The notes under the pieces were generated by a model that ran no database searches, had not been told where the DNA came from, and worked only from the letters and a program-made list of their open reading frames with translations. Below are positions 16,789-33,051 of a DNA stretch of 33,051 bases, in pieces; the stretch's first letter is position 1; the number at the start of each line of letters is the position of its first letter. The position numbers and the translations under genes were made by a program. The stretch comes from Alicyclobacillus acidiphilus NBRC 100859 (GTDB lineage Bacteria > Bacillota > Bacilli > Alicyclobacillales > Alicyclobacillaceae), in the NCBI RefSeq assembly GCF_001544355.1, contig NZ_BCQI01000033.1, positions 1 through 33,051 of the forward strand, in the 5' to 3' direction.

Positions 16789-17080
16789 GAATAAGGGGGC
16801 GACAGCCGCTTATTTGTGTCGAATCTTCCGATTCGCGCCGAATAAGGGGGCGACAGCCGCTTACGTGGTTGAAATCGCCCATTCCGGGCGCAACGGAGGC
16901 AAATAAGCGTCTTTGGGCCGCCTATTTGCTTTCCATCCCGTCATTTTAACGAAATAAGCGTCTGAGAGACGCCTATTGTGCCCGTTCGAGTCCGCCACTC
17001 TCCATCAGCCACGACCGGCTTCGGCCAACCTTCGCGATCACGCCCCCGTAAGGGAACTTTTGTCCCTTGCGACGCGCAAA
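16789..17080 (+). repeat. Dispersed multi-hairpin element, copy A
   Basis: The core at 16789-16977 has four hairpin units in the same order as copies B and C. Units 1 and 2 are exact duplicates of 24 bp (16789-16812 and 16840-16863), each starting GAATAAGGGGG and ending CCGCTTA. Unit 3 pairs GGAGGCAAATA (16895) with TATTTGCTTTCC (to 16934). Unit 4 pairs AATAAGCGTCT with AGACGCCTATT (16953-16976). The linker GTGTCGAATC after unit 1 is shared with the other copies. Conservation with copy B continues downstream through GCGATCACGCC and CCGTAAGGGAACTTTTGTCC to about 17080, where AAGGGA/TCCCTT forms a fifth stem. No minisatellite lies on the left side. Confidence 0.8.
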
Positions 17081-17244
17081 CCGGTCGCCGCTCTTCGACA
17101 TCGTTCCGCCGCAAGGGGGGTGACGTCCTGATCCATGGCGTGAAATCCCTTGTCCTGGAAGCTTTTATCCATCTGCGAAACGCTCGCTATCCGGTCTAAA
17201 CACAAAAACCATCGACCGGCGAAAGATAACATTTCATAAAAAGG
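17081..17244. other. Intergenic region without a recognised gene
   Basis: This stretch between element copy A and the permease relic contains short open frames only, none with a good ribosome site. I see no regulatory signal I can support. Confidence 0.4.
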
Positions 17245-17953
17245 GTGTGCATGAGACACATGAGCGTAATGATAAAAGCGCTCTACAGGCGTGAAGTCGT
17301 GCCATTGCCGCGACGGCTTTCGGTGTGGCGAAGGATGATTAAGTCACGACTGGCGTTGTGTGGCTTGATTTGGCTCGGAATTGTCGCTTGTATTTCCATT
17401 TTTTGTCCTCTGCTTGCTCCGCTGCTTGCTCCGCTGCTTGCTCCGCTGCTTGCTCCGCTGCTTGCTCCGCATCCGTACAACGCCCATTTTCTCTCTATCT
17501 TTGCTGTCACTGGGTTACATCGTCAAATTTATGCAGGCAGGGATGAGGGAGGCCTTGCATCAGGACTATCTGCTCATTGTGAGGTCTCGCGGTATTCCTG
17601 AACGGTTGGTCATTTTGCGGCATGCGGTCCGACCTGCGGTTCTGTCCGTTCTCACGTACATGGCACCGCAATTCGCCATAGTTGTTTCGAGCACCTTTCT
17701 CATCGAAAATACGTTCTCGATTCGCGGCCTCGGTACCGTGATGACTCAGGGCGCGCTCGCGAGTGAACAATTCTACAGCAATTTGTTCAATTCAGGGGTC
17801 ATGCCAGCGCCTGGCATGATTGGACTGTACGGGCCAACCTTGGCATTGCCCATTGCCATCTTGTACGTGCTGGGTTTCATGGTGATGGTGTTGAACTTCG
17901 CGGTTGACTTCCTGTACTACTGGATAGATCCCCGGATGCGGGCCGAATCCTGA
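17245..17953 (+). pseudogene. Chimeric relic of oligopeptide/dipeptide ABC permeases
   Basis: The first frame (from 17245) looks like the N-terminus of a DppC/OppC permease: SVWRRMIKSRLALCGLIWLGIVACISIFCPLLAP, then HPYN. Near 17485-17500 the match switches frame to the C-terminal half of a DppB/OppB-type permease: SLGYIVKFMQAGMREAL, then DYLLIVRSRGIPERLVILRHAVRPAVLSVLTYMAPQFA (the EAA-loop region) and the terminal helix ending at 17953. A deletion joining two neighbouring permease genes explains this, with order implying loss of the intervening sequence. Five 12-bp repeats sit in the first part. No ABC ATPase or binding protein remains here. Confidence 0.8.
17410..17469 (+). repeat. Five tandem 12-bp repeats (CTGCTTGCTCCG)
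   Basis: Five perfect copies of CTGCTTGCTCCG encode repeated Leu-Leu-Ala-Pro at the end of the first membrane helix of the permease relic. A normal DppC has one such APLLAP stretch. Perfect identity indicates recent slippage expansion. Confidence 0.95.
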
Positions 17954-17972
17954 TGACCGGTTATGCAATCGT

Positions 17973-18005
17973 AGAGGCGGATACGGTTTCCGCCTCTTAT
18001 TTTTG
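17973..18005 (+). terminator. Rho-independent terminator after the permease relic
   Basis: AGAGGCGGA (17973-17981) pairs with TCCGCCTCT (17989-17997) over a 7-nt loop and is followed by TTATTTTTG. Perfect 9-bp stem. It ends transcription from the left and overlaps the stop codon of the minus-strand gene. Confidence 0.85.
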
Positions 18006-18578
18006 ATTTCGATTTCGTTCCAAGTCGTGAAACAACTGTTCGAGACGGGAGAGTTCGCTTGTCGCCTTTTGAATCTCCTCTCTCGACTGCGTATCGTCTT
18101 GCAGAGGGAAGAGCAGAAAACGAATGGCTGACAACGAGGTCCGAACTTCGTTGACGACAGCCCATGGGAGCACTTGGTTGGCCTTCGAGGCTGCCTTTTG
18201 AAATTCGCGCAACGTCTTGTGCTTGTACCCCAAGAAAACGACGGCCAAGTAGCCTATTACCTGCAGCAGGATAGTGCCTATGTCGGTGACGAGTGACTGG
18301 CCGGCAAACAGATGGCCGGGATCAAGTACGACATTGCCGCAGAGATACAACATGGAGATACAAAGTCCGCACACAAGCCCTGATACGTAGGCAGATGCAC
18401 CCGCGAACGCCAAACCGAAGATGTAGCTGGGATGATTGGAAATCGCGCCCCAGACCGCCAAGCCCACCACACCGATGGCCAACATAAAATTCCCATGCAG
18501 GCGAACGAACATCATCATCCGCTCGTCGGCTTGATTGGTCCGCGAACGGAACGAACGAACAGGTTCCCGTTTCGTCAT
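17997..18578 (-). CDS. Membrane protein with histidine-kinase-like dimerisation segment lacking His
   Basis: A protein of 193 residues if started at ATG 18578 (the frame reaches 18617). Four or five hydrophobic segments run from FMLAIGVVGLAVWGAI to ILLQVIGYLAVVFLGY. The cytoplasmic tail reads WAVVNEVRTSLSAIRFLLFPL, then EEIQKATSELSRLEQLFHDLE. This resembles a HisKA dimerisation hairpin (HExRTPLxxIxxxxxLL and the second helix), but the phospho-acceptor His is replaced by Asn and no ATPase domain follows. It may be a truncated kinase or a partner that titrates or binds a phosphorelay component. The ribosome site is weak. No family name is assigned. Confidence 0.65.
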   Translation of the reverse strand: MTKREPVRSFRSRTNQADERMMMFVRLHGNFMLAIGVVGLAVWGAISNHPSYIFGLAFAGASAYVSGLVCGLCISMLYLCGNVVLDPGHLFAGQSLVTDIGTILLQVIGYLAVVFLGYKHKTLREFQKAASKANQVLPWAVVNEVRTSLSAIRFLLFPLQDDTQSREEIQKATSELSRLEQLFHDLERNRNQK

Positions 18579-18686
18579 TCGCCATACCCGCTTTCCGCAT
18601 AATCGGCTGAGGCCCATGATAATAGCATGATGATGTACATTCTAGAACGCCGCGCGCGTGATCGACAGATGAAGTCGGACCAATTC

Positions 18687-18710
18687 GCATAGTCCATTTG
18701 GACTATGCGG
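18687..18710. promoter_or_regulatory. Perfect 24-bp palindrome upstream of the FMN-binding gene
   Basis: Arms CGCATAGTCCA (18687-18697) and TGGACTATGCG (18700-18710) are perfect inverted repeats around TT. The central TAGTCCATTTGGACTA shares layout with the site at 5381-5396. It lies about 105 bp before the start at 18815 and is an operator candidate; no T-run follows. Confidence 0.55.
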
Positions 18711-18814
18711 CGCGACTGATGGGCGCCCAGCCGTGTTTGTCTCAAATGTGTTTTCAAGCGACGTTTGGTGATCTATGAACATACCGATTCCATCATGGCT
18801 TGGAGGAATGTACG

Positions 18815-19357
18815 ATGTCGCAGAAACCAAACGGAATCAACCGCTCATTGATTGCACTCTGTTCGTCAGCAATTGTCAGTATCGCCGCCGCAGCTCCCTT
18901 GGTCATGGCAGGAACCGATGCGACAGTTGGCTCAGTATCCGCACACACGACCGCCATCGGACTTCCTTCGCAGGTGTCGCTTGGCCGCGTGGCATTCGTC
19001 GTGGCTCCAAATGAAGCTGCGGTCAAGAAATCGACCAAGTCGACGACGACGTCCAAGAAATTGACAACGAAGCAGAAGTACAAGGATGGTACATACAAGG
19101 GAACGGGATCGACGCGCATCGGCTCGGTGACAGTGGCCATCACGTTGAAGAAGGACAAGATCACGCGAGTGCAAATCGTCGATTTCACAACGCACTATCC
19201 CATTCAATACATCGATCCAGTGTTGCCCAATGAATTGCTGAAAACGCAGAATATCAACAAGATCGACGCCGTAAGCGGGGCGACGCTCAGCTCGGAGGAC
19301 TTTTACGAAGCTGTCGTCACGGCTTTGAACGAGGCGCAGCAGGCGGAACGAGCTTAA
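18815..19357 (+). CDS. Secreted FMN-binding domain protein
   Basis: This 180-residue protein has an N-terminal signal or anchor segment (SLIALCSSAIVSIAAAAPLVMAG), a Lys/Thr/Ser-rich linker (about 70-90) and a C-terminal FMN-binding domain. The domain starts YKDGTYKGTG and ends DAVSGATLSSEDFYEAVVTAL. D151-A-V-S-G-A-T157 fits the flavinylation pattern DxxSGA(S/T) used by ApbE transferases, so FMN would be ester-linked to Thr157. The ATG at 18815 follows GGAGGA. The next gene, an RnfD/NqrB-like membrane protein, begins 26 bp after the stop, so the two probably form one extracytoplasmic flavin electron-transfer unit. No apbE is in the window. Confidence 0.88.
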   Translation: MSQKPNGINRSLIALCSSAIVSIAAAAPLVMAGTDATVGSVSAHTTAIGLPSQVSLGRVAFVVAPNEAAVKKSTKSTTTSKKLTTKQKYKDGTYKGTGSTRIGSVTVAITLKKDKITRVQIVDFTTHYPIQYIDPVLPNELLKTQNINKIDAVSGATLSSEDFYEAVVTALNEAQQAERA

Positions 19358-19383
19358 GTCCAATCGCAAGGAGTTGAGACAAC

Positions 19384-20304
19384 GTGACGACGCAACGTGT
19401 CAAGATGCGCCCCAAGCGGAAACGAACCAATTCGCCCAAGCCATCGCGCCTGCGGCGGTTCGTCCAAACGCCCAAGGGCCTTGTGACGGTCATCCTGAGT
19501 GTATTGGCCTTGATTGCAATCTGTGCCGAGAAAGGGTTGGATCCCGCCGCGCTAAGGAACACCATCGCCGCCGTGGCCAGCGCGCTGGTGATGGACTGGA
19601 TCGTCTCGCGATTCTACTTTAAGAAACCCAGGATCTCGGACGGCGGCGCCGTGACCGGACTCATTGTGGCGATGGTCCTGGGATCGCTGACCGCCTGGTA
19701 TCTTACCATCTTGACGGTGGCGGTTGCGCTTGCGTCGAAGCACCTGTTGAAAACGAAGCGCAAACCGATTTTCAACCCGGCTGCAGTGGGATTGCTTGTT
19801 TCGACGATGGCGTTCTCGACGATGCAGAGTTGGTGGGGCGGCATGTCGCTGTTGCCGCCGGAGTACTTGGCGTGTCTGTGCCTGCTTGGGTTGTGGACGG
19901 CCATTCGCGTGAAAAAACTGCCGCAAGTGCTCGCGTTCCTTGGCGCATACGCGATCGTGTCGGTCATCTTTATGGCGTTTCCAACGACGCGCATGGACGC
20001 GTTGTACGCGCTCGAAAATCCCATGCTGAACTCGGCGTTGTTTCTCGCCTTCTTCATGCTCACCGATCCGCCGACGTCTCCCGCGATCCGGCGCGACCAG
20101 GTGTGGTTTGGCGTGTTGGTCGGCACGTTGAGCGTGGTCATTTACATGGTGTTTCCCGCGGAATTGTCCTATCTCTTCATCGCATTGCTCATTGGCAACG
20201 CGACGAAGTGGCTGCAAAGTGTTTGGAAGCAGAGGCACAGGCTGGCGAGAACCGCCGAACCAGGGCCGTCTCGGCAAGTTCCGGCGGAGCGCCACGGTCT
20301 CTAA
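19384..20304 (+). CDS. RnfD/NqrB-like membrane protein
   Basis: A polytopic protein of 306 residues, start GTG 19384 after AAGGAGTTGAG. Features that recall the RnfD/NqrB family are KHLLKTKRKPIFNPAAVGLL in the middle and FFMLTDPPTSPAIRRDQVWFGVLVG near residue 220, plus an Arg/Lys-rich cytoplasmic N-terminus. RnfD and NqrB carry FMN and pass electrons across the membrane. The typical covalent Ser-Gly-Ala-Thr attachment site is not visible here, so this member may bind flavin differently or serve as partner to the FMN protein upstream. It overlaps the end of the convergent kinase gene by 4 bp. The family call is by motif memory. Confidence 0.78.
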   Translation: MTTQRVKMRPKRKRTNSPKPSRLRRFVQTPKGLVTVILSVLALIAICAEKGLDPAALRNTIAAVASALVMDWIVSRFYFKKPRISDGGAVTGLIVAMVLGSLTAWYLTILTVAVALASKHLLKTKRKPIFNPAAVGLLVSTMAFSTMQSWWGGMSLLPPEYLACLCLLGLWTAIRVKKLPQVLAFLGAYAIVSVIFMAFPTTRMDALYALENPMLNSALFLAFFMLTDPPTSPAIRRDQVWFGVLVGTLSVVIYMVFPAELSYLFIALLIGNATKWLQSVWKQRHRLARTAEPGPSRQVPAERHGL

Positions 20305-21593
20305 ATGGGCATGGTCACCTCCACCGCTGTGCCATGCCCATTTGCGACCGGGCTCCTGATGGAGATTTTTCCTTGGTGAGCCTCGACAATCCACTTCGCG
20401 ATGGCCAAGCCAAGACCGCTGCCGCTGCCGGATCGAGCCTTGTCCGACTGGTAAAAACGATTGAACACGTGCGGCAGATCGACGGGTGAGATGCCGATAC
20501 CGGTGTCCGTGACCACCAATTTGACATGGTGTCCCACGGGTTCGAGGGAGACGTCGACGCGGCCGCCGGTATCGGTGAACTTCATGGCGTTGTCCAAAAG
20601 AATCGTGAGCAGTTGGGTCATGCGTTCGGGATCGACCTGCACTGTCACAGCCTGCAACGCAGCGTCCAGGTGAATGTCTTTCGTCTCGGCGAAGGGTCGA
20701 AACGATTCCACAGTGGCGGCCAGACATTCGTGGAGTTCCGTCGGTTGGCGCTGAATTTGCAATTGGTTGGAATCCGTCCGCGCAAGCGTCAGCAAGTCTG
20801 CGACGAGGCGGCGCATCCGAGACGTTTCGCGCTGGATGTTTCCGAGGTTTTCGCTCATTTCTTCAATGGTGCGACTGGGATGCCGAAACAGTCGATCCAA
20901 CTGTGTTTGCGTGATGGCGAGCGGTGTGCGCAGTTCGTGTGAAGCGTCCGCGACGAATTGCTGTTGACGCAGCCACGCGTTCTGGATGGGAATCAGTGCT
21001 CGCTGCGCCAAGTAAATTCCGATAAGGAGCGACAATGCGGCGCCTATCACGGTGCCGATCTCGATCATCCGAAGCAGGTTTCGCAAAAAGGCTACATCCT
21101 CGGCCCGGTTGTACAACAGGAGGACTACGCTTGGCTGCGGTCCAGTCATGGCCGCTGATCCCGTTGGCGGGGCCAGCGACATGACGCGGAACGAAGTTCC
21201 CCCGACATCCATGGTCGTGAGTTGATTGAGCTGAGCATTTTTTCGGACAAGTTGAATGGTCTGCGTCGAGAGGCTGTTCGCTGGGTCCTGCTCCAAAACG
21301 TGTCCCTGCTTGTCCAGTAAAATGGAAATCACGTGTGTCTGTTTCACCTCTTCGGTTTCGTTCTGGTTTTTATCATGATGATTGTCATGGTCATCGTCGT
21401 GGTGATCATCGTTGCGCATGCGATCCAGATCGCCGTTGCGGATCAAACTCGCCTGAGTCGTCAACGTGGTATTCTCCTCCATCACGAAGCGATGTCGCGT
21501 GACGAAGAAAATGGAGGCGCCGAAGATCAAGAGGATGCCGAAAAAGGCGATTGAATTGAGGAGGGCCAGTTGAAACCTGGTTTTACGGAACAA
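20301..21593 (-). CDS. Sensor histidine kinase with Asp/His-rich extracellular loop
   Basis: A membrane kinase of 430 residues: helix 1 about 7-31, external sensor domain about 32-175, helix 2 about 176-198. It then has HisKA with His219 (ADASHELRTPLAI) and an ATPase domain (LLDNAMKF, DTGIGI, GSGLGLAI). The sensor domain contains DDHHDDDHDNHHD at 62-74, a run able to bind transition metals such as Zn, Ni or Cu; this is an inference from composition. It lies 3 bp after the response regulator, same strand. It converges on the FMN/RnfD-like pair, which may be its target. Confidence 0.93.
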   Translation of the reverse strand: MFRKTRFQLALLNSIAFFGILLIFGASIFFVTRHRFVMEENTTLTTQASLIRNGDLDRMRNDDHHDDDHDNHHDKNQNETEEVKQTHVISILLDKQGHVLEQDPANSLSTQTIQLVRKNAQLNQLTTMDVGGTSFRVMSLAPPTGSAAMTGPQPSVVLLLYNRAEDVAFLRNLLRMIEIGTVIGAALSLLIGIYLAQRALIPIQNAWLRQQQFVADASHELRTPLAITQTQLDRLFRHPSRTIEEMSENLGNIQRETSRMRRLVADLLTLARTDSNQLQIQRQPTELHECLAATVESFRPFAETKDIHLDAALQAVTVQVDPERMTQLLTILLDNAMKFTDTGGRVDVSLEPVGHHVKLVVTDTGIGISPVDLPHVFNRFYQSDKARSGSGSGLGLAIAKWIVEAHQGKISIRSPVANGHGTAVEVTMPI

Positions 21594-21596
21594 CAG

Positions 21597-22271
21597 TCAG
21601 CCCTCCTTCAACATGTATCCGACGTTGCGCACCGTTTGAATGTGCTGATCCAAACCGTAAGGATGTAACTTCTTGCGCAGGTAGTGGACGTAGAGATCCA
21701 CCGCAGATTCGACGGTTTCCGTATCAATTCCCCAGACGCGGGATGATATTCGTTCGCGCGTCAAGATTTGGCCTTTATTGAGAACAAAGTATTCGAGCAA
21801 GCGAAATTCTGTTTCGGTTACGTGAAGCGGCTGTCCATCCACGGTCGCTTGTTTGGTTTCCGGAACGAGCACGAGATCCTGATAATGCAAGGTCATGTCC
21901 GTGTCGATATCGCGGTTTCTGCGCAGCAAAGCGCGAATACGGGCAAGCAGTTCTTCGATAGCAAACGGTTTGACCAGGTAGTCGTCGGCTCCGGCATTCA
22001 GACCGTCGACGCGCGACTCGACACTATCCTTGGCCGTCACGAAGATGGCTGGAGCGTAAATCGCCTGATCGCGCAGCCGTTTCATGAGTTCGATACCGTC
22101 AAGTTCAGGCATCATGATGTCGATCACGAACGCGTCGTAGACGTCGGTCTCCGCCAGGTACAACCCTTCGTCGCCATTGGCCACCTCGTCCACTTCATAA
22201 GCCGCTTCGCGCAGAACGTCAGCCATCGCCGTCCGCAATGTGTCGTCGTCCTCGATAAGCAATATCCTCAC
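21597..22271 (-). CDS. OmpR/PhoB family response regulator
   Basis: A 224-residue regulator beginning VRILLIEDDDTL (GTG start at 22271). The receiver has the acidic cluster 8-10, phospho-acceptor Asp51 in FVIDIMMPELDG, Thr in FVTAKD and Lys in VKPF. The winged-helix domain has LTRERISSRVWG and DLYVHYLRKKL, then TVRNVGYML. It is first in an operon with the sensor kinase. A TAGTCC half-site at 22318-22323 lies about 50 bp upstream and could mark autoregulation or shared control. Confidence 0.95.
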   Translation of the reverse strand: MRILLIEDDDTLRTAMADVLREAAYEVDEVANGDEGLYLAETDVYDAFVIDIMMPELDGIELMKRLRDQAIYAPAIFVTAKDSVESRVDGLNAGADDYLVKPFAIEELLARIRALLRRNRDIDTDMTLHYQDLVLVPETKQATVDGQPLHVTETEFRLLEYFVLNKGQILTRERISSRVWGIDTETVESAVDLYVHYLRKKLHPYGLDQHIQTVRNVGYMLKEG

Positions 22272-22362
22272 TGTTTGTCCCTCGTTTCAAACGCGGGGAT
22301 GATTTCAAGGAATACTATAGTCCATAAGCTTCGAAATGGGATTAGAAGCCGTCCTGCGACGC

Positions 22363-22402
22363 AAAAAAGGCAGCCGATGATGGGTCATCCATTCGGCTGC
22401 CT
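22363..22402 (-). terminator. Rho-independent terminator for the small gene
   Basis: On the minus strand, GGCAGCCGA (22401-22393) pairs with TCGGCTGCC (22377-22369) and is followed by TTTTTTGC. Perfect 9-bp stem. It lies about 50 bp after the stop of the 49-residue ORF, supporting that ORF as expressed. Confidence 0.88.
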
Positions 22403-22449
22403 GGGGGGCGAGATCGTCAGATTCCATTGTGACGGACACCAGCGAGCAA

Positions 22450-22599
22450 TCATCGACGGCCGGAAATACCGTTCCACAGTTTCTTGATGAAGTTGCCCGA
22501 CGTTCTGACCGTGAATCGCCCCTGTGGATAATAGCTCCGGTGCGCGTCTTCCAGCATCGCCTGGTGTACACATCTCATGACTCCGCAATTTTGTTCCAT
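22450..22599 (-). CDS. 49-residue small protein, unknown
   Basis: A short ORF not covered by longer genes. The ATG at 22599 is preceded by GGAAGGAAGAGG about 8 bp upstream, and a strong terminator follows. The peptide begins MEQNCGVMRCVHQAMLEDAH and ends NFIKKLWNGISGRR. It has two Cys (5 and 10), a basic C-terminal half, no signal peptide and no membrane helix. I do not recognise a family. Ribosome site plus terminator make it more convincing than its length alone. It is divergent from the xylanase gene, so it may share the regulatory region at 22665-22747. Confidence 0.6.
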   Translation of the reverse strand: MEQNCGVMRCVHQAMLEDAHRSYYPQGRFTVRTSGNFIKKLWNGISGRR

Positions 22600-22664
22600 C
22601 CAGAACACCTCTTCCTTCCTCGGATGCCCTCATTATATGAGCCGCGGAATGAACCGTGGGAATC

Positions 22665-22747
22665 AGGAAGCGTTTCCAATATGAACATTTTTCTTTGTAA
22701 AACGCTTGCTTTGTGAACAACTTTTTTGTAACCGTTTACGCTATGAT
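22665..22747 (+). promoter_or_regulatory. CcpA/LacI-type operator array and -10 box before the xylanase gene
   Basis: TGTAACCGTTTACG at 22727-22740 matches the catabolite-response consensus TGWAANCGNTNWCA except for the last base and lies just before a TATGAT -10 box at 22742-22747. Two weaker versions occur upstream: GTAAAACGCTTGCT at 22697-22710 and AGGAAGCGTTTCCA at 22665-22678. The central CG dinucleotides are 32 and 30 bp apart. Catabolite repression by CcpA, or a LacI-type xylose regulator, is inferred. Confidence 0.6.
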
Positions 22748-22800
22748 AGAGACAGGTCTATATGTCCATATTTGTTCGTCTATAGGAGGGCTTGCCAAGC

Positions 22801-23820
22801 ATGAGTGAAGGTCAGAATACGCCATCGCTCCGCGACGTCTATCGTCCCTATTTTTCCATTGGCGCCGCGGTCAATCCCAGATCGCTCGTCTCGCACGCCG
22901 ACTTGCTGCGAACGCACTTCAACAGCGTGACCGCGGAAAACGAGATGAAGTTCGAAGTGATCCACCCCGAGGAAGATGTGTATCGGTTCGATCACGCCGA
23001 CGCCTTGGTCCAATTCGCCAAGGACAACGGCATGCGCGTTCGCGGCCATACACTCGTTTGGCACAATCAGACGCCCGACTGGGTCTTTGTCGACGATGCC
23101 GGACAGCCAGCTTCTGCCGACAAAGTCCGACGGCGGATGCGCGCCCACATGGAAACCGTCCTCGGCCGCTACCAGAACGACGTCTATTGTTGGGATGTCG
23201 TCAACGAAGCCATCTCCGATCACGCCGACGCCTACCTCCGTCCCAGCCGATGGATGACCGCGCTCGGCGACGGGTACATCGCCGAAGCTTTTCGGTGCGC
23301 CCACGAGATCGCCCCGTCGGCCCTGCTGTTCTACAACGACTACAACGAAACCAAACCCGACAAGCGCGATAAAATCTATCGGCTGGTTGCGGGATTGCTC
23401 GACGAAGGCGTGCCGATTCACGGCATCGGCATGCAGGGGCACTGGATGATGACAGAACCGTCTATTGAAGAAATTCGCGACGCGATCGAAAAGTACGCCT
23501 CGCTCGGCGTGCAAATCCACGTCACCGAACTCGACATCAGCGTCCACGAGTACGTCCATGAGCCCGACAAGTCCTCCGCTGCGGCGCGCGTGTTTGACGA
23601 GCGACTGGAACGGGAGCAGGCGGATCGATATGAACAGTTGCTTCAGTTGTTCCGCGAGTACAGCCGCGTCATCCGCAATGTGACATGGTGGGGAATCGCC
23701 GACGACGAGACTTGGCGCGACAACTTTCCCGTAAAAAACCGCAAGGACTGGCCGCTCATGTTCAACGAGCAGCATCAGCCGAAGGAAGCGTTTTGGCGCG
23801 CGGTGAATTTCGCGAAGTAA
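22801..23820 (+). CDS. Intracellular GH10 endo-1,4-beta-xylanase
   Basis: A glycoside hydrolase family 10 enzyme of 339 residues, a single catalytic barrel without signal peptide or carbohydrate-binding module. The acid/base is Glu136 in WDVVNEAI and the nucleophile Glu243 in IHVTELDIS. GHTLVWHNQTPDW and ENEMKFE are further family signatures. Lack of export suggests hydrolysis of imported xylo-oligosaccharides, as for cytoplasmic GH10 enzymes in Geobacillus and Alicyclobacillus. ATG 22801 follows GGAGGG by 12 bp; TTG 22792 is too close. No xylose transporter or other xylan genes are adjacent. Confidence 0.95.
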   Translation: MSEGQNTPSLRDVYRPYFSIGAAVNPRSLVSHADLLRTHFNSVTAENEMKFEVIHPEEDVYRFDHADALVQFAKDNGMRVRGHTLVWHNQTPDWVFVDDAGQPASADKVRRRMRAHMETVLGRYQNDVYCWDVVNEAISDHADAYLRPSRWMTALGDGYIAEAFRCAHEIAPSALLFYNDYNETKPDKRDKIYRLVAGLLDEGVPIHGIGMQGHWMMTEPSIEEIRDAIEKYASLGVQIHVTELDISVHEYVHEPDKSSAAARVFDERLEREQADRYEQLLQLFREYSRVIRNVTWWGIADDETWRDNFPVKNRKDWPLMFNEQHQPKEAFWRAVNFAK

Positions 23821-23918
23821 GAAGTCAATCGAAGTTACGCCGCACATCTCCGTCAGCGGGCAATGGCAGGGGAATACAGCGAAAAAGCGCATGCACACGC
23901 GTTCCGAGGAGAATGAAG

Positions 23919-24488: not shown

Positions 24489-24519
24489 ACAGAGGAGAAA
24501 GGCTAAGGCAGCACAACGG

Positions 24520-25676: not shown

Positions 25677-25771
25677 GATGATGCTTCCCCTCTTGTCGCT
25701 CCCTAGAATTCGGCCCCTGCCGCCTAGTGTACTTCATGGCATCACCAAAATGAAATCCGAGCCCGCGGGGA

Positions 25772-26135
25772 GTTACGGCGGCGGAGTGGGCGGCGGCGGA
25801 GTGGCGGCGGCGAGCGCGGACGGCGGAGTGGACGGCGGAGTGGCGGCGGAGAAGAATAAGCGGTCCTCAGTCGCTTAAGTGTGTCGAATCCGCAGATTTG
25901 CGGCGAATAGGCGGCCCTGGGCCGCTTAACCGGCTGAGATCGTCGAGTTTTGGGCGTAGGGAAGGCAATTAGGCGGTCTGTGGCCGCCTATTTGCCTTCC
26001 ATTTGATTGTCTCGGGGAAATAAGCCTCTGAGAGACGCTTATTTGGCTAGTCACTTTCGCCACCCCTCCCGCCCCCGCCGCGATCGCGCCGCCGTAACGG
26101 TAGTTTTGTCCTCTATCGCTGCCTAGGTGCCCTGC
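25772..26135 (+). repeat. Dispersed multi-hairpin element, copy B, with inverted terminal repeats
   Basis: GTTACGGCGGCG at 25772-25783 is a perfect inverted copy of CGCCGCCGTAAC at 26087-26098. Between them are a GC-rich minisatellite (25784-25853, units like TGGCGGCGGAG) and four hairpins: AATAAGCG/CGCTTA (25855-25877), GCGGCC/GGCCGC (25906-25929), GGAAGGCAA/TTTGCCTTCC (25960-26000) and AAATAAGC/GCTTATTT (26018-26044). A small CCGCA/TGCGG stem sits at 25890-25903. The linkers GTGTGTCGAATC and ACCGGCTGA match copy C. Downstream, TAGTTTTGTCC and a GCTGCCTAGGTGCCC unit extend the similarity to copy A and to the left edge. No coding capacity is seen. Confidence 0.82.
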
Positions 26136-26256
26136 GCCCCCCGCGCTCATTCGACAGATTCCGGTGATTTTCGATCGTCAGCAACTCTAGCGCATGTTAC
26201 CATAGAAGTATCTGAAAAATGAGTAGAATCGCCGCAAAGTGATTGGAGGGCCTTCA

Positions 26257-27708
26257 ATGAAACTGGAAGGAAGAGCGGCATTTCGCGTCGGGGCTGTGTC
26301 GTGTGTGTTGGTGGGCCTGACGTGGTCGGCCTTTCCGACGATGCCGTACGCGTCTTCCACCATCGATAAAGCTCAGTTTTTGCAGTTGTTTTGTCAAAGT
26401 GTTCAGTTGAAGCCGGATGCCACGGGCAAATCGTCGTACACGGATGTGCCTGTGACGTCGCCGTACTGGGGGTATGTGCATCGAGCTATCGAGCTTGGCC
26501 TGGTCAAGGCGGATTCGGCGAAGCTGTTCGGCGCGAGTGATTCGGTGTCGACGGCTTTTGCGGCGCAGATCGTGACGAAGTATGAGAACATGGCCTTGGG
26601 TGGACTGACGCCAACGCAGTGGGCGGAACGGCAGGGGTTGGTAACCGCTTCGACGGCTCCTTGGACGCCCGAGCAGGCGCAGCAATTTCTGGCTGGCTTG
26701 AAGAGTCTTGCGGCGTCCCACAAGGCTTTGCCCGGTTCTTGGATGCTGACGACGCCTCAGGTCAGCGAGTTCACCAAGGCGTTGGCGGCATTGGATCAGG
26801 CCTCGTTCTATCAAATCTCTTCCGTCATGACAGACGGCTTCTCGTACCAGTTGACGGCGGCGGGCAAGAAGAATACGAAGATCGCGAATGCCTTGCAGAA
26901 GCAGGCGAACGATTCGAAGAGTGAACTTGATGCGGCGAGATCGGTCGGTGTCGTGGGTGGAACCAGTGTGTCGGTCAACCAGTCGATGCTGACGTCCGTC
27001 AATGCCAAGACTGGCGCCAAATCTACGCAGACGATTCAAGACGTTTCGTTCGGCAACACGCTGTACACCAAACAGGGGAATGCGACTCAGTGGTCGTCGA
27101 AGACGGCACAGGTCAACAATACGGTTGAGTTTATTCCCATGTTTGGATCGGGATCGTTCACCAACATCACCATCGCTCAGGGAACGGGCAGGGATGTGTT
27201 CACGGCGAATTTGACGCCGGCGGCGCAGAATGGCTTTTTCGCGTCGTATCTCAGCGGGCTGGCTGGGGTTCATGCGAATGGCAGCGCGAATTTGATTTCG
27301 ACGATGGAAAAAGGGATGACCAGCACGGTGAAAATTTACGTCAACACGTCGGGGAGGACACCGACGGTGACGGAGGAAGATCTGACGACGAACATCAAGA
27401 TGACGCCGACGACGTTCGCGCAATTGGCGGGCGAAGGGTCGCAGGCGAAGACCATCGCGACCTATGTCTCCAATGTCACGGTGTCGATCTCGGCGAAGGC
27501 CCAGATTTCCTACAACCAGACGGTTCCGGTGCTGCCGAGCGGACTTTCCATAGCCGGTTGGTCTTCAGGAGATGGAGCACCGACGAACGCGACGGGTGCT
27601 AGCGCGAATGGCACCGGCACGAACAGCGCCAACTCCATCGATGCTTCTGGGAATGGGGCGGCTGGCGGATCGAACACCCTGGATATCGGTACGAATCTGT
27701 TCAACTGA
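26257..27708 (+). CDS. Secreted protein with an SLH-like N-terminal domain
   Basis: This 483-residue exported protein begins with a signal peptide (residues 1-32, cleavage after PYAS). Next comes one S-layer-homology-like domain: QFLQLFCQSVQLKPDATGKSS, then YTDVPVTSPYWGYVHRAIELGLVKAD. The middle region (150-430) is Ser/Thr/Ala/Gln-rich with beta-strand character and has no recognised family. The tail (440-483) is Gly/Ala/Asn/Ser low complexity. ATG 26257 follows TTGGAGGG. A single SLH suggests a cell-wall or spore-surface role. It lies just downstream of element copy B. Confidence 0.78.
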   Translation: MKLEGRAAFRVGAVSCVLVGLTWSAFPTMPYASSTIDKAQFLQLFCQSVQLKPDATGKSSYTDVPVTSPYWGYVHRAIELGLVKADSAKLFGASDSVSTAFAAQIVTKYENMALGGLTPTQWAERQGLVTASTAPWTPEQAQQFLAGLKSLAASHKALPGSWMLTTPQVSEFTKALAALDQASFYQISSVMTDGFSYQLTAAGKKNTKIANALQKQANDSKSELDAARSVGVVGGTSVSVNQSMLTSVNAKTGAKSTQTIQDVSFGNTLYTKQGNATQWSSKTAQVNNTVEFIPMFGSGSFTNITIAQGTGRDVFTANLTPAAQNGFFASYLSGLAGVHANGSANLISTMEKGMTSTVKIYVNTSGRTPTVTEEDLTTNIKMTPTTFAQLAGEGSQAKTIATYVSNVTVSISAKAQISYNQTVPVLPSGLSIAGWSSGDGAPTNATGASANGTGTNSANSIDASGNGAAGGSNTLDIGTNLFN

Positions 27709-27767
27709 GTATAGATTCAGGTATAGGCAACAAAGATAGGACAAAAACGTTGGAGGAGGGTCTGCCG

Positions 27768-28055
27768 ATGCATATCCGCGCGAAAGCGAACGGTTTTGAG
27801 GCCGTGGATGACCGGGGTCAGGTCATTGGCCGCATCGATTGTTCGGAAGTGAGGGAGGGTGTCGTCTCCATCGATCACACCATCGTCGCGCCTGAGCATC
27901 AGGGGCAGGGCATCGCCGCGCAGTTGGTCGAGCAGGTGGTCAAGCAGGCGCGCGCCGAACACAAGCGGATCCGCCCCGTCTGTTCCTACGCGTACGCCGT
28001 GTTTCGCCGCAACGCCGAGTACCGCGAGGTAATTGATCCCGATTACGACCTGTAA
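27768..28055 (+). CDS. Small GNAT-type N-acetyltransferase (COG2388-like)
   Basis: A 95-residue protein matching the short GCN5-related acetyltransferases of the YjdJ/COG2388 type. After an N-terminal beta region (FEAVDDRGQVIGRIDC), VVSIDHTIVAPEHQGQGIAAQLVEQVV carries the acetyl-CoA loop (Q-G-Q-G-I-A). IRPVCSYAYAVFRRNAEYREVI includes the conserved Cys and Tyr. The ATG at 27768 has GGAGGAGGG upstream. Substrate unknown. Convergent with galK. Confidence 0.9.
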   Translation: MHIRAKANGFEAVDDRGQVIGRIDCSEVREGVVSIDHTIVAPEHQGQGIAAQLVEQVVKQARAEHKRIRPVCSYAYAVFRRNAEYREVIDPDYDL

Positions 28056-28103
28056 CTCACCCGTTTGTGGAGGACATGGCTGTCACGGTTCGTGGAACGA
28101 GCG

Positions 28104-28136
28104 ACCGCCCTTCATCGCTGGTCGGGGAAGGGCGGT
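28104..28136. terminator. Strong hairpin between convergent genes
   Basis: ACCGCCCTTC (28104-28113) and GAAGGGCGGT (28127-28136) form a perfect 10-bp stem. It lies between the convergent GNAT and galK genes and could end transcription, but no T-run follows in either direction. Confidence 0.4.
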
Positions 28137-28204
28137 GGTCGGTCGTTGAAAGTCGTTCGTCGCAGAAGGTCGTTCCTCGCCAAACGGCGTTGCCAGCGGT
28201 CAGC

Positions 28205-29422
28205 TTATGGTTGGAGATCCAGCGCGATTTCCCGCGCCCCGTCGCCGATTTCGGTGATGTAGAAACTCGGAGCGATGCCAAGCCGGGCTTCGTAGGCTGC
28301 GGCAACCGACGCCACGAACTCGTCGATGGCGTTCTCGCGCACCAACGAGACTGTGCAGCCTCCGAATCCAGCGCCCGTCATCCGCGAACCGATGCAGCCT
28401 GGAGCGGCCCAGGCCGCTTCAGCCAAGGCGTCGAGCGCGTCGCCTGTGACTTCGTAATCGTCCCGCAAGGACTGGTGGGACGCGTTCATCGACTCGCCGA
28501 ACGCTTCGAGCTGGCCGTTTGCCAGAAGCGTCGGGGCTTCTTTGGCGCGGGCGTTTTCGAACACCACGTGTCTTGCGCGTCGAATCAGGATGTCCGCAGC
28601 GGTGTCGTCGAGCTTATCTGCCGCTGCACGCAGCCGCGCCTGTGCGTCTGGCCACATCTCGGGTGTGACGTCCGCCAAGGCGTCGAGATCCGGCCAAGTG
28701 TCTCGGAGGATCGCCAGGGCCTTGTCGCACTCGCTTCGGCGCTCGTTGTATTTCGATCCGGCCAAGGTACGCTGCACATTCGTATTGGCGATGACGAGCC
28801 GGCAGCCATCCGCGTGCATCGGTACCACTTCGTAGGCGAGCGTCGAGCAATGGAGCGACAGCGCCGAATCTCGTTTCCCCATCGCGACCGCGAACTGATC
28901 CATAATGCCGCTGTTGACGCCGACAAACTGATTTTCCGCGCGTTGCGCAAGGATCGCGATTTGCTCTCCAGACCACGCCGTGTCTGTCAAGGCACAGATC
29001 GCCGTGGCCGTCGCGACCTCGACCGACGCTGACGAGGAGAGTCCGGCGCCGATCGGGAGATTGCCGTGAAAGAAAAAGTCCGCGCCTGGCAGATGGATGT
29101 CTTCCCGGGCGAACATGTCGATCACGCCAAGCGGATAATTCGCGAAATCTTGCTCCGGGCGATAGGCGATGTCGTCCGCCCGAACCGCGATCACGCCGTC
29201 CGCGAAGGTTGAGCCGAAGCGGAACAGGCCGTCTGTCCGGGATCGCACGAACAGCCAGGTTCCCAGGGACAACGCGGCAGGCAAGACATACCCTCCGTTG
29301 TAATCCGTGTGTTCGCCAATCAAATTGACGCGGCCCGGTGCGAAGAATAGACGCACATCCGAGATCGGCCCCGGCGAAAAAGCCTCCCACTGGTTCAGCG
29401 CGTACTGCCACTCGTGATTCAT
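28205..29422 (-). CDS. galK: Galactokinase
   Basis: Phosphorylates galactose to galactose 1-phosphate, first step of the Leloir pathway. A GHMP kinase of 405 residues. The galactokinase signature GRVNLIGEHTDYN is at 30-42, the ATP motif LPIGAGLSSSASVEVAT at 121-137, catalytic Asp174 in NSGIMDQF, and motif 3 GAGFGGCTVSLV near the C-terminus. The start overlaps the galT stop by 4 bp, so the two are coupled. The operon order is deoR-galT-galK with no galE or galM here. Confidence 0.97.
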   Translation of the reverse strand: MNHEWQYALNQWEAFSPGPISDVRLFFAPGRVNLIGEHTDYNGGYVLPAALSLGTWLFVRSRTDGLFRFGSTFADGVIAVRADDIAYRPEQDFANYPLGVIDMFAREDIHLPGADFFFHGNLPIGAGLSSSASVEVATATAICALTDTAWSGEQIAILAQRAENQFVGVNSGIMDQFAVAMGKRDSALSLHCSTLAYEVVPMHADGCRLVIANTNVQRTLAGSKYNERRSECDKALAILRDTWPDLDALADVTPEMWPDAQARLRAAADKLDDTAADILIRRARHVVFENARAKEAPTLLANGQLEAFGESMNASHQSLRDDYEVTGDALDALAEAAWAAPGCIGSRMTGAGFGGCTVSLVRENAIDEFVASVAAAYEARLGIAPSFYITEIGDGAREIALDLQP

Positions 29423-30396
29423 TCCTCTGTTCCTGCCTTTCTCGATTCAATCGCTGCTCGGAGCAGCGGCGCCGTGGCCTCCACCGCCGTCGGATTGCAC
29501 GGGGCCCAGGCTCCCGATTCGGACGACGCCAGGAACTTCAACCGATCCTTGGTCTGCAAGGGCGGATAAAACTCGATGTGAAAATGGTAGTACTCGTTGA
29601 CGTCGGGACCGTTCACCGGCCGTTGATGGATCACCATCATGTACGGAAACGATCGGTCGAACAAGGCGTCCATCCCTGCCGTGACTTGTTTGAGAATCCG
29701 GGCGAGATCTGTCCGTTCCGCGTCGGTGAAATCGGTGATGCCGCTGACATGCCGTTTGCTGGAAATAAACGCCCCATACGGATAGTCCGTGAAGAACGGG
29801 ATATAGGACACGAATGACTCCGTTTCCGTGAGCATACGGAGCCCAACGCGAACTTCGTCGGCGTTGATGTCGCACATGAGGCAACGTCCCGTCTCGTCGT
29901 GATGATGACGGCACGACTCCAGTTCGACCCGCAGCTTTTGCGGGATGTATGGATACGCGTAGATCTGGCCATGCGGGTGCGGCATCGTCACGCCGACTTC
30001 AGGGCCGCGGTTTTCAAAGATGAACACGTACTTGTGGTTCGGATTGGCGGACAACGACTCAAATCGTTCCACCCACAAATCCACCAGCTTGCGAATGTGG
30101 GCGACGGACAATTCAGGCAGACTCGTCGTGTGGTCCGGCGAATAGAGGATGACCTCGCATTTGCCGTAGGCTGGCGCGACCTGGTACAAGCTCGTCGCGA
30201 CCGGATCGGGATCGGGCGGCGTCGGCGACAGCGCAGGAAAATCGTTGTTGTACGCATACACGTCATACGTGTCAGGCACCTTGCCTGACCCAGGACAGAA
30301 CGGGCAGTCGCCTTTTGGCAAATTCGGCCGCTTTTGCCTGTTGGAAGCGACCATCGTCCAGTCGCGCAGGAGTGGGTTGAAGCGAAGTTCCGTCAT
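29419..30396 (-). CDS. galT: Galactose-1-phosphate uridylyltransferase
   Basis: Exchanges UMP between UDP-glucose and galactose 1-phosphate. HIT-superfamily type I GalT of 325 residues. The zinc-binding CPFC is at 31-34 and the active site TMPHPHGQIYAYP carries nucleophile His142 (H-P-H-G-Q). The C-terminal NEYYHFHIEFYPP is the second family block. The start at 30396 follows GAGGTGATC; the longer frame to 30444 has no site. It is 4 bp from the regulator gene stop. Confidence 0.96.
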   Translation of the reverse strand: MTELRFNPLLRDWTMVASNRQKRPNLPKGDCPFCPGSGKVPDTYDVYAYNNDFPALSPTPPDPDPVATSLYQVAPAYGKCEVILYSPDHTTSLPELSVAHIRKLVDLWVERFESLSANPNHKYVFIFENRGPEVGVTMPHPHGQIYAYPYIPQKLRVELESCRHHHDETGRCLMCDINADEVRVGLRMLTETESFVSYIPFFTDYPYGAFISSKRHVSGITDFTDAERTDLARILKQVTAGMDALFDRSFPYMMVIHQRPVNGPDVNEYYHFHIEFYPPLQTKDRLKFLASSESGAWAPCNPTAVEATAPLLRAAIESRKAGTEE

Positions 30397-30400
30397 AGGA

Positions 30401-31219
30401 TCACCTCGTGTCCATCTTGGTTGGCTTGGGATACTCGTCGTCATTCCTCGCGTCGATGCCGTCGGCGCAGATCACGTCCACGCCGTGCGAAGCGAGCGTG
30501 CGCTCTGCGAATGCGCCGGGCAAGGCATCCGTCACGAGGACGTCGATCTCGTCCAATCCGCCGAAACGGCACATCGCTTCGCCGTTCCATTTCGTTCGAT
30601 CCGCCAGCAGCACCACCTTGTCCGTCCGCTCCATCAGCGCCCGGTTGATGGACGCTTCGAGCAGGTTGGGGGTGGATAGGCCGTGATCGACATGCAGCCC
30701 GTTGGCGCCGACAAACAGGATATCGGTGTGGAACTGCCGCGCGGCCATTTCGGCAATGGGCCCGACCAACGCGTCCGACGGCGTACGGAACACGCCGCCG
30801 GTGATGTGGATATCCGTCCAACCGATGGCGCGCAAATCCGTCGCGATGTTCACAGAGTTGGTGACGAACGTCAATTCGGAAAAACCGACGAGATGCTTCG
30901 CAGTCACCCAAGTCGTGGTGCCCGCCGCAAAGCCGATGGTCATTCCGTTTTCCACCAAACGTCGTGCCGCCGCAGCGATGGCCTCCTTTTCACGAATTTG
31001 CATGATCTGCTTGCTCGTGTAGGGAAGTTCCATCGCCGCCCGGGAAACCTGCGCGCCGCCGAAAGCTTTTTCAACGAGCCCTTGTTCACGCAGAATTTTC
31101 ATGTCGCGGCGAATCGTAATTTCCGATACCTGCAATTTCTCCGCCAATTCCTGATAGGAGAGAAATCCCTCCTTCGCGAGCAGGGACAACAGCAGCGACT
31201 GTCGTTCTTTCGGATACAT
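30401..31219 (-). CDS. DeoR family transcriptional regulator
   Basis: A 272-residue regulator. The N-terminal winged helix (19-42) carries the family signature LSYQELAEKLQVSEITIRRDMKILREQGLVEKAFGGA. The C-terminal sugar-phosphate-sensing domain is of the DeoRC type with GFAAGTTTWVTA and LFVGANGLHVDHGLSTPN. The ATG at 31219 has GGGAGG at 31226-31231. It heads the gal operon and probably represses it until a phosphorylated sugar binds. An inverted repeat at 31330-31382 in its promoter region is a likely operator. Confidence 0.95.
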   Translation of the reverse strand: MYPKERQSLLLSLLAKEGFLSYQELAEKLQVSEITIRRDMKILREQGLVEKAFGGAQVSRAAMELPYTSKQIMQIREKEAIAAAARRLVENGMTIGFAAGTTTWVTAKHLVGFSELTFVTNSVNIATDLRAIGWTDIHITGGVFRTPSDALVGPIAEMAARQFHTDILFVGANGLHVDHGLSTPNLLEASINRALMERTDKVVLLADRTKWNGEAMCRFGGLDEIDVLVTDALPGAFAERTLASHGVDVICADGIDARNDDEYPKPTKMDTR

Positions 31220-31329
31220 GGCCCGCCTCCCTTCCCATGCGGATTTCGCTACGCGGATAGCTTCATGCGGTCTCCTGGATGCGACTGTATTCACGTGGCG
31301 TCCTCGGCCTTTGGCGTGCTGGCCATGAT

Positions 31330-31382
31330 GATGATCATGATTTGATTTAAGAATATCATATTTAGATCAAATTGTGATCATC
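31330..31382. promoter_or_regulatory. Probable operator of the deoR-gal operon
   Basis: GATGATCATGATTTGAT (31330-31346) and ATCAAATTGTGATCATC (31366-31382) are 17-bp inverted repeats with 2 mismatches, separated by 19 bp of AT-rich DNA. The spacer contains a TATGAT-like -10 box read on the minus strand. Located 110 bp before the regulator start. Autoregulation is inferred. Confidence 0.6.
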
Positions 31383-31490
31383 ATTTGATGAATCGAGCAT
31401 GGTTCAAACCTTCACCATGACTTCGCATGAATTTTCATTGATAGGGGAATATATCCAACGTATCAGACCATTTTTTGTGGAGGTATTTGA

Positions 31491-32099
31491 ATGCAACAGC
31501 AACAGCAGCAACAGCAACCGAACGCACAGTACGGCGCACACGAAGTGCTTGGTATGAGCGAAGCGCTGACCACGAAGGCTGCCAATGTCGAGTTGTTTTC
31601 GTTTTTAAGCAATCAAGTTCAGGACATGCAGTTGCGCAACATGCTGGAGAATCAGGCTCGCATCATTGAGCAGCACTACATCCAGGGTGTGCAAATCCTG
31701 CAGGGAACGGGCCAGGCTTCTCAGTCGCCGACACAATACGCGGGCAACATGAACGCGCAGCCGAAACTCGGTCTTCGCCAGCCCAGCCACCCAGCCCCGA
31801 ACATGAACCCACAGACGCTTTCGGACCGCACCGTGTGTACCATTGCGCTGAATGTGCATAAATTTGGCGCGATCGGCTGGACCACATTCGCGTTGGAATG
31901 CACGAATCCGCAGTTCCGGACCTACTTGATGACCGGGGCGAGCGTGTGCGATCGAATGGCGTACGACATCTGGGCGTACATGAATCAAAAGGGTTGGTAC
32001 CAGGTCCCAACGCTTCAGCAAAACACGACCCAAACCATGATGCAGTCCTATCAAGTGCCGCAACAAGGCCAAGCGCAAAACATGCAGCATTTCCAATGA
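31491..32099 (+). CDS. CotF-like spore coat protein
   Basis: A 202-residue protein of the CotF family with ferritin-like four-helix character. It begins with a poly-Gln tract encoded by CAG/CAA repeats (MQQQQQQQQP). Two helix-pair blocks follow: VLGMSEALTTKAANVELFSFL to IIEQHYIQGVQIL, and LSDRTVCTIALNVHKFGAIG to MAYDIWAYMNQKGWYQVP. The second block, with a Trp-rich end, is typical of CotF proteins. The tail is Gln-rich. ATG 31491 follows TGGAGGT. Monocistronic, ended by a terminator. Sporulation control is expected, but no clear sigma-E or sigma-K promoter was found. Confidence 0.9.
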   Translation: MQQQQQQQQPNAQYGAHEVLGMSEALTTKAANVELFSFLSNQVQDMQLRNMLENQARIIEQHYIQGVQILQGTGQASQSPTQYAGNMNAQPKLGLRQPSHPAPNMNPQTLSDRTVCTIALNVHKFGAIGWTTFALECTNPQFRTYLMTGASVCDRMAYDIWAYMNQKGWYQVPTLQQNTTQTMMQSYQVPQQGQAQNMQHFQ

Positions 32100-32162
32100 T
32101 GGCTTGACGGATCGAACGCGCTCGCGCGTTCGGTTCCGCCCATTCCATATCGCGATCTGGCC

Positions 32163-32208
32163 AGGGCTGTCCCAAACGCGGTGAATCCGCAGGCGGGGCA
32201 GCCCTTTT
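32163..32208 (+). terminator. Rho-independent terminator after the coat gene
   Basis: AGGGCTG(T)CCC (32163 on) pairs with GGGGCAGCCCT (to 32205), followed by TTTT. It is about 65 bp after the coat gene stop. A second perfect hairpin (CGAACGCG/CGCGTTCG, 32113-32132) lies between and has no T-run. Confidence 0.75.
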
Positions 32209-32254
32209 GGCGTACGGTTTGCGCGCGGCGTGTGTTCGACGGGGGCAGCTTCTC

Positions 32255-32350
32255 ATGAAGAAGATTTTGTTCACCGGCGGCGGATCCGCCGGGAACGCCC
32301 AGGTGAAGCCCGCGTTCAATGTGTTTTCGAGACAGGCTCGCTATGCTTAA
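32255..32350 (+). pseudogene. Fragment resembling the N-terminus of MurG
   Basis: A 31-codon ORF begins MKKILFTGGGSAGNAQVKPA. MurG glycosyltransferases begin MKKIxFTGGGTAGHVxxNLAL, so the first Rossmann loop is recognisable with His replaced by Asn. The frame ends at TAA 32348-32350 and no further MurG sequence is seen. It looks like a relic of a MurG-like gene. Confidence 0.5.
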
Positions 32351-32417
32351 TCCTGTAGGAAGCGAATCGTGCTCACCGTAGACGTGCTCATCACAATCGA
32401 AGCGAGGGTCCGCTCAT

Positions 32418-32783
32418 ATGGAGAATTTGACGCACCTGGCTGACCCGTGGCACATGGAACAAGCGATGATTGCATACTGCTACGGGCATCCGAAGACACT
32501 TGCAGACGGAACGAATCACTTCGACGAAACCATCGCAGAGTTGCGCCAAGATGGTCACGAGCTGTGGCACTATGGGCAGACTTGTGGCTTGGTCGATCGC
32601 GACGGCCACTGGTACGTATGGATTAAGCTGTATCGCGAAGACGGCATCATGGAGGGCAAGGTACACGAGTTCCTCCAAGTTGAGACAGCGATTCAACATA
32701 TCTTCGACGAACTTCCATCGCTCGACTCGAACGAGCGAATCCGCCTGGTACGAAGCGTGTTTGCCCGCAAGCACGTTACATAA
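32418..32783 (+). CDS. Hypothetical protein
   Basis: A 121-residue soluble protein with acidic and His/Trp-rich content. MEQAMIAYCYGHPKTLADGTNHFDE opens it, CGLVDRDGHWYVWIKLYREDGIMEGKVHEFLQVETAIQHIFDEL forms the middle, and the end is Arg-rich. There is no signal peptide and no membrane segment. I do not recognise the family. The start is ATG 32418 with a modest GAGGG upstream. The stop codon TAA at 32781 abuts the start of element copy C (TAACGG), so the element may have inserted at or near the gene end. Confidence 0.7.
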   Translation: MENLTHLADPWHMEQAMIAYCYGHPKTLADGTNHFDETIAELRQDGHELWHYGQTCGLVDRDGHWYVWIKLYREDGIMEGKVHEFLQVETAIQHIFDELPSLDSNERIRLVRSVFARKHVT

Positions 32784-33051
32784 CGGGGCAGCGGGGCGGC
32801 AGTGGGCGGCCGGCTGAGGAGCGGGACGAGCGCGATCTCGGGCGGCCGGCTGAGGAGCGGCGGAGAATAAGCGGCCCCGGGCCGCTTAAGTGTGTCGAAT
32901 CGGCTGAATGGCGCCGAATAAGCGGTCGTGAGCCGCTTAACCGGCTGAAACCATCCGGATTTTGGCGGAGGGAAGGCAAATAGGCGGTCTGAGGCAGCCT
33001 ATTTGCCCTCCATTTGGCCATTTCGGAGAAATAAGCGTCTGTGAGACGCTT
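32781..33051 (+). repeat. Dispersed multi-hairpin element, copy C (cut by window end)
   Basis: The left flank TAACGGGGCAGCGG resembles the copy B terminus. It is followed by a 21-bp exact direct repeat (32804-32824 and 32840-32860, starting GGGCGGCCGG). The four hairpins are: TAAGCGGCCC/GGGCCGCTTA (32868-32888, 10-bp perfect); TAAGCGG/CCGCTTA (32919-32939); GGCAAATAGGC/GCCTATTTGCC (32975-33007, 11-bp perfect); AAGCGTCT/AGACGCTT (33033-33051). Linkers GTGTGTCGAATC and ACCGGCTGA are as in copy B. The right part lies outside the window. Confidence 0.82.

Follow-up and report, generated by a model that had tools for sequence, protein, structure and literature searches.

The genome of Alicyclobacillus acidiphilus NBRC 100859 (3.86 Mb in 165 contigs; label G000) carries an abundant family of non-coding elements, three of which lie on contig 33 (NZ_BCQI01000033.1), whose 33,051 nucleotides are the window analysed here. 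We are moderately confident that these elements are non-autonomous mobile intergenic DNA and that their core is a helically phased array of four putative 21-bp sites for a dimeric protein. The hairpins that a preliminary description had noticed in this DNA are four 21-bp palindromes of the form TAAGC-N11-GCTTA per core, with starts 51, 62 and 51 bp apart. Each palindrome has the shape that a site for a symmetric, dimeric DNA-binding protein would have, and sites about 5, 6 and 5 turns apart would all come to lie on one face of the helix. If a protein does bind there, the four sites could assemble one nucleoprotein complex, which may drive or regulate insertion. Such a repeat family is defined by its geometry and not by its sequence, and sequence-based repeat finders would tend to miss it; the accessible parts of the open-access literature yielded no description of the element.

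Copies in the A. acidiphilus genome

The three copies reported earlier, with one order, one set of linkers and one orientation, were recovered as a single non-coding element on the + strand. The positions first given for them do contain the element, and they are wider than the conserved core of 196 bp, flanking arms being included. The third core in the window is 7 nt short at the contig end.

16787 to 16981, + strand: core of copy A, with palindromes at 16792-16812, 16843-16863, 16904-16924 and 16955-16975
16982 to 17080, + strand: C-rich right arm of copy A, with the module GTAAGGGAACTTTTGTCCCTTGC at 17048-17070
25772 to 25851, + strand: G-rich left arm of copy B, with GGCGG-type short repeats
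25852 to 26047, + strand: core of copy B, with palindromes at 25857-25877, 25908-25928, 25970-25990 and 26021-26041
26048 to 26140, + strand: C-rich right arm of copy B, with GCGATCGC and, by eye, a degenerate GTAACGG..TTTTGTCC module near 26093
32784 to 32862, + strand: G-rich left arm of copy C
32863 to 33051, + strand: core of copy C, ending at the contig end, with palindromes at 32868-32888, 32919-32939, 32981-33001 and 33032-33051 (incomplete)

The high genomic number expected from three copies in 16 kb was confirmed when the core was searched against its own genome. BLAST gave 54 matches, 45 of them taken as separate copies, and a profile search gave at least 157 matches at E<=1e-3 (both-strand overlaps counted in), a lower bound with 150 of 1341 candidates scored. 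After overlaps had been resolved, 154 places remained in 322 kb of own-genome loci, and the 122 elements that score at least 75 bits, whole or cut by contig ends, are the set used for later counts. A strict pattern finds the spacing of 51, 62 and 51 bp exactly in 29 of these 122; nearly all others are within 1 bp of it, or show its sums where a site was missed, and three have too few sites. The lower-scoring set from the same genome retains the spacing with different linkers. An alignment of 40 of the 45 copies (five near-duplicates excluded) has a mean column identity of 80% and few gaps, and it contains 1400 substitutions versus 17 indel events; the length of the core is clearly constrained. 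At about twenty places, as read from the list, two copies lie ∼280-380 bp apart. A single one of the 122 elements is inside a called open reading frame (ORF), and 34 have no called neighbour on one side.

The mean left flank is G-rich next to the core (G 0.50, C 0.25) and the mean right flank C-rich (C 0.50, G 0.21), a bias that reaches background within ∼125 bp on both sides. Short tandem repeats were detected in 75 of 111 left and 59 of 114 right flanks, versus 52 of 1722 control stretches; left-arm units are mostly 5-11 bp long, and by eye the arm repeats differ from place to place. Another genome of the family, G056, likewise has C-rich repeats in the right arm. In G000 and G056, the strand read 5' to 3' towards the core is the G-rich one in either arm, which means that a polymerase coming from left or right meets the same strand bias. 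The proposed complex may block polymerases and let tandem repeats accumulate in both arms, since tandem duplication beside a roadblock would explain them. Pairing of the two arms of one locus with each other was dropped as a candidate: the mean duplex energy is -61.9 kcal/mol (82 loci) versus -60.1 kcal/mol for mismatched loci, and although the value for matched arms lies beyond all 20 shuffles (-61.8 to -58.1), the margin is too small to build on.

Two short motifs were observed beside the cores. The hairpin module GTAAGGGAACTTTTGTCCCTTAC (up to 5 mismatches), with its window example at 17048-17070, occurs 46-119 nt to the right of the core in 11 of 116 right flanks and in 0 of 113 left flanks, and has two further matches elsewhere in the own-genome loci examined. 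The palindrome GCGATCGC, which we take to be the cyanobacterial HIP1 octamer, is 8-13 times denser up to 200 bp from the cores (1.1 per kb left, 1.9 per kb right) than elsewhere in the loci (0.14 per kb), and is also found within linkers of the arrays in family genome G054.

Spacing and distribution across genomes

Among the matches listed for the named-genome loci and one viral locus, successive palindromes are 51 bp apart 101 times and 52 bp apart 121 times, with 61-62 bp occurring 11 times, 100-104 bp 12 times and 50 bp twice; in the named loci and the Bacillaceae loci the 51/52 peak is partly selected by the scan pattern, which prescribes a gap of 28-32 bp. In a scan of 13 genomes that allowed any gap from 36 to 66 bp, the listed matches come from 4 of the genomes and, apart from a single one at 57 bp, fall at 50-52 and 61-63 bp; the reversed pattern gave none in any of the 13. 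Any 8+5+8 palindrome, irrespective of its letters, gave 100 pairs at 51/52 and 38 at 61/62 with single counts elsewhere in the G000 loci, 33 and 16 pairs in 20 Bacillaceae loci, and 2 at 51 and 5 at 61 among few pairs overall in G056. No spacing peak was present in 400 kb of G012, the nearest relative of A. acidiphilus by one gene. With imperfect sites admitted, four palindromes at about 51-61-51 can be seen by eye in Rossellomorea, Cytobacillus and G056. At about 10.3 bp per helix turn, we interpret 51-52 bp as 5 turns and 61-62 bp as 6.

Judged by its letters, the family appears to be confined to the A. acidiphilus genome; judged by its geometry, it is not. None of 40 relatives matched in BLAST and none of 14 other genomes of the genus matched the profile. 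Of the 41 family genomes scanned, 4 contain pairs of palindromes with a gap of 28-32 bp (G000 106, G054 12, G056 10, G019 6), and none contains the reversed pattern; three further genera of the family have the layout in different letters. Because coordinates and letters are identical, we infer that G054 is an Alicyclobacillus metagenome-assembled genome (MAG; locus L185) and G019 the MAG HSP1.bin40 (L180, L203). The scan of named genomes returned at least 84 stretches. Of the 80 listed with names, 76 belong to Bacillales genera (Cohnella, Paenibacillus, Rossellomorea, Cytobacillus, Neobacillus, Pseudoneobacillus, Bacillus, Sporolactobacillus and Alicyclobacillus), two to a Bacillota MAG and two to other phyla (L173, L231); the inner letters of the latter two are non-palindromic. 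A viral origin was rejected: the one stretch in viral contigs also has non-palindromic inner letters and was taken as chance. The element is patchy, with 14 of 31 genomes in the genus of Cohnella sp. CFH 77786, and 2 of 299 in a phylum sample that has only ten of the others in the same class. Because the scans need exact TAAGC/GCTTA they undercount, and the conservation of TAAGC itself cannot be shown by them.

This distribution bears on the idea that the elements are host-useful chromosomal sites for nucleoid organisation, or barriers to forks or transcription, kept by selection at each place. The constant geometry of strongly diverged copies, their location nearly always between genes and the arms, which are the same from either approach, would all suit such a role. 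With no match in the 14 other genomes of the genus, and with matches in 4 of 41 family genomes, 14 of 31 in the Cohnella genus sample and 2 of 299 in the phylum sample, the element is too unevenly distributed for a conserved function, and the oriented insertion in Rossellomorea described below speaks against it as well. We regard this explanation as unlikely.

Several single loci are worth recording. Cohnella caldifontis (L205:1049-2422) has more than 20 near-identical palindromes with a 52-bp period, which could be mistaken for an array of clustered regularly interspaced short palindromic repeats (CRISPR); CRISPR spacers are unique, whereas the linkers here are alike between copies and within the printed arrays. 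G206, a 1.6-Mb genome of another class of the phylum, contains three TAAGC palindrome pairs with CCCA/TGGG-like arms, two of them 115 bp apart, perhaps in the same four-site layout. On a 5.2-Mb contig of G056, the five + copies of one subfamily (L241, L245, L248-L250, L253, L254) all lie before 2.4 Mb and both - copies past 4.1 Mb, a possible replication orientation bias among seven copies only.

DNA dyads versus RNA stems

The preliminary description took the retained pairing of diverging arms as a sign of selection for structure. Within the genome, this could barely be seen. In the 40 aligned copies (56 pairs in 7 helices) 82.7% of cells pair versus 82.1% after shuffling (reached by 10 of 500 shuffles), 43 cells are changed on both sides versus 34.1 (12 of 500), and the covariation score is 0.097 versus 0.088 (11 of 500), an excess of a size that relatedness alone can give. 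A G-test with background correction put no hairpin pair above the column-shuffle null, although one pair of the fourth hairpin is G-C in 14 copies and swapped for T-A in 12. Sliding the partners by 1-3 columns leaves 34-47% of cells paired, as expected for a consensus-derived structure. Altogether, the evidence for selected structure within the genome is slight.

Between genomes the picture is different. With one palindrome taken from each of 34 genomes, among them both matches in other phyla, Watson-Crick pairing at the three positions adjoining TAAGC occurs in 25, 26 and 24 genomes versus 11.0, 15.7 and 12.0 after shuffling (reached by 0 of 5000 in each case). When each of 23 distinct arm types is counted once, the numbers are 14, 15 and 13, reached by 3, 1 and 46 of 5000 shuffles. 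The fourth inner pair is mildly raised (14 of 34; 195 of 5000 shuffles reach) and the innermost is not (8 of 34; 4449 of 5000). If the two other-phyla matches are left out, 25, 27 and 25 of 32 are Watson-Crick. By these counts, the inner arms clearly change in compensating pairs between genomes, a pattern that does not tell RNA from DNA.

A structured non-coding RNA with the palindromes as its four stems, or a retro-inserted RNA, would equally be expected to show this covariation; the consensus folds well, and the slight within-genome excess of compensated cells points the same way. Stems of an RNA read from one strand tolerate G.U and not A.C. In the 40 copies we counted 54 G.T and 65 A.C stem cells, each number being what independent sides would give, and the Rossellomorea mismatches comprise 2 G.T and 10 A.C. 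The lack of a consistent one-strand wobble excess fits a double-stranded dyad better than a folded RNA, and together with spacings near whole helix turns it favours protein-bound DNA. The window has no Rfam match at the gathering threshold, and the E-value lists for the regions of copy B and of Rossellomorea locus L221 contain only matches below gathering scores. The structured RNA suggested at the outset is thus not supported, and we consider an RNA origin rather improbable. The family would rather be a natural case of arms that co-vary as apparent protein-binding dyads.

General weak palindromes at the linker midpoints were also considered and rejected (123 versus 116.7 after shuffling, reached by 515 of 2000, in 32 linkers); an axis one base further to the right gave 140 of 416, spotted post hoc.

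Insertion, candidate machinery and known systems

Insertion shows most clearly in a Rossellomorea genome (G058), which was searched with a 2.6-kb query around one copy. The core is part of a ∼490-bp unit that recurs with 80-92% identity at 15 or more further places in G058 (at least 16 in all). At one locus compared with three relatives, the flanks are 8, 17 and 115 bp apart in G075, G074 and G077 versus about 1190 bp in G058, where the gap is filled by the unit of the core and other repeats. Most units share a common left and right end. Of the 16 units compared, 15 have an intact right end and 5 start late on the left (unit position 32-111); simple ORF calls place on the right of 15 of the 16 a gene that points towards the unit. 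In 13 of 16 units, L309 included, a clear terminator hairpin and its T-run lie directly against the fixed end, while L311 has a T-run without a stable hairpin, and L299 and L310 adjoin another repeat. From the terminator at the fixed end and the neighbour gene facing the unit, we conclude that the Rossellomorea units were inserted in one orientation behind intrinsic terminators. The intergenic region L221:2372-3090 of Rossellomorea also contains two or more other repeat families; the ∼125-bp unit of one of them occurs in G074 in tandem and in large numbers.

The suggestion of a non-autonomous mobile element is therefore upheld for Rossellomorea by empty sites, dispersed units and oriented insertion, whereas no empty site is shown for A. 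acidiphilus. There, the 87 elements between two called genes lie in 50 tandem, 24 convergent and 13 divergent gaps versus 20, 7 and 12 among control gaps of at least 100 bp, a mild lean to convergent gaps.

A classical miniature inverted-repeat transposable element (MITE) derived from a DDE-transposase insertion sequence (IS), with the outer half-sites as its ends, would account for the inverted ends in G000 and G056 (TAGAGATCC...GGATCTCTA) and for the common ends of the Rossellomorea unit. By eye, with no systematic test, the 16 Rossellomorea junction pairs contain no target-site duplication; no autonomous copy was met, though no genome-wide search was made; and we know of no MITE with four internal phased palindromes. 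A MITE in this sense appears quite unlikely to us.

Late left ends next to intact right ends are also seen in target-primed reverse transcription, and to that extent the Rossellomorea units agree with a retro-inserted RNA. Within the family, a group II intron reverse transcriptase is encoded by 3 of the 4 genomes that bear the element, G054 being the exception, and by 22 of the 37 that do not; the enzyme was rejected as the mover for want of association with the element. Abundant intergenic palindromes in tandem and mosaic arrays would suit repetitive extragenic palindromic (REP) sequences or their hairpin-forming doublets (REPIN), moved by a REP-associated tyrosine transposase (RAYT, a Y1 transposase), or IS200/IS605 derivatives. 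The Y1_Tnp domain (PF01797) is found in 0 of 4 bearing family genomes and in 17 of 37 others, and we rejected this mover for the four assemblies unless the transposase is encoded in an unassembled part; this origin is very improbable. The earlier statement that the element matches no IS, REP or CRISPR feature accordingly holds for REP/RAYT.

Several observations weigh against a mobile, protein-bound array. No binding protein was found, and the 84 loci of other genomes have no clearly recurrent neighbour gene, the best candidate having relatives at 6 other loci. The 87 intergenic elements of A. acidiphilus reveal no clear insertion target, and no empty site for the window copies is shown in G012, where synteny ends near copy A. 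Spacings of 53-54 bp occur three times and one of 95 bp once among the matches listed, and the listed matches of the free-gap scan include one of 57 bp. Tandem duplication alone could preserve the register of the long 51/52 arrays of Cohnella. The G/C arms, strong in G000 and G056, are weak in the Bacillaceae loci, where they keep the same direction. In the between-genome pairing test, relatedness was handled by the distinct-arm count only, and the inner pairs of the 122 copies lean to G.T (63 versus 40 A.C).

We nevertheless prefer the phased array, and a more far-reaching proposal, which is speculative and offered tentatively, can be built on it. An undescribed family of DNA-binding proteins and the array may co-evolve in Bacillales; inner specificity would drift by genus while the 5-6-5-turn geometry is kept, the complex would move the element behind terminators, and its two-way barrier to polymerases would breed the arm repeats. 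The repeat family makes it testable whether one DNA-binding factor stands behind abundant intergenic repeats of spore-formers, and why such elements gather behind terminators.

Among known systems, group IIC introns insert directly downstream of intrinsic terminators, and the Rossellomorea units share this preference. The element differs from these introns in having no reverse transcriptase association and no intron RNA among its Rfam matches, and also in its ends, the fixed one lying against the terminator and the far one being cut short. Bhal-1 (74 bp) and Bant-1 (72 bp) are stem-loop repeat families of Bacillus, placed in class I in the accessible text of Cozzuto et al. (2008, PMC2267715); compared by length, without their sequences, they are near two 21-mers at 51-bp spacing (72 bp). 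REP systems, for which the accessible text of PMC3733652 gives a GTAG/CGTC tag, resemble the element, as do the bacterial interspersed mosaic elements (BIME) and REPIN, in their short intergenic palindromes, high copy number, clusters and mosaics. The absence of a Y1 transposase from the four bearing family genomes, the near-perfect 21-bp dyads and the whole-turn spacing set the element apart from them. The MITEs of Firmicutes (bcr1, RUP, BOX), as far as we know them, are likewise non-coding, dispersed, intergenic, foldable and patchy, and in Rossellomorea the discrete ∼490-bp non-coding unit at empty sites adds to this likeness. Unlike MITEs, the element has by eye no target duplication at the Rossellomorea junctions and is inserted there in one orientation behind terminators, and, to our knowledge again unlike them, its letters turn over between genera while its geometry stays.

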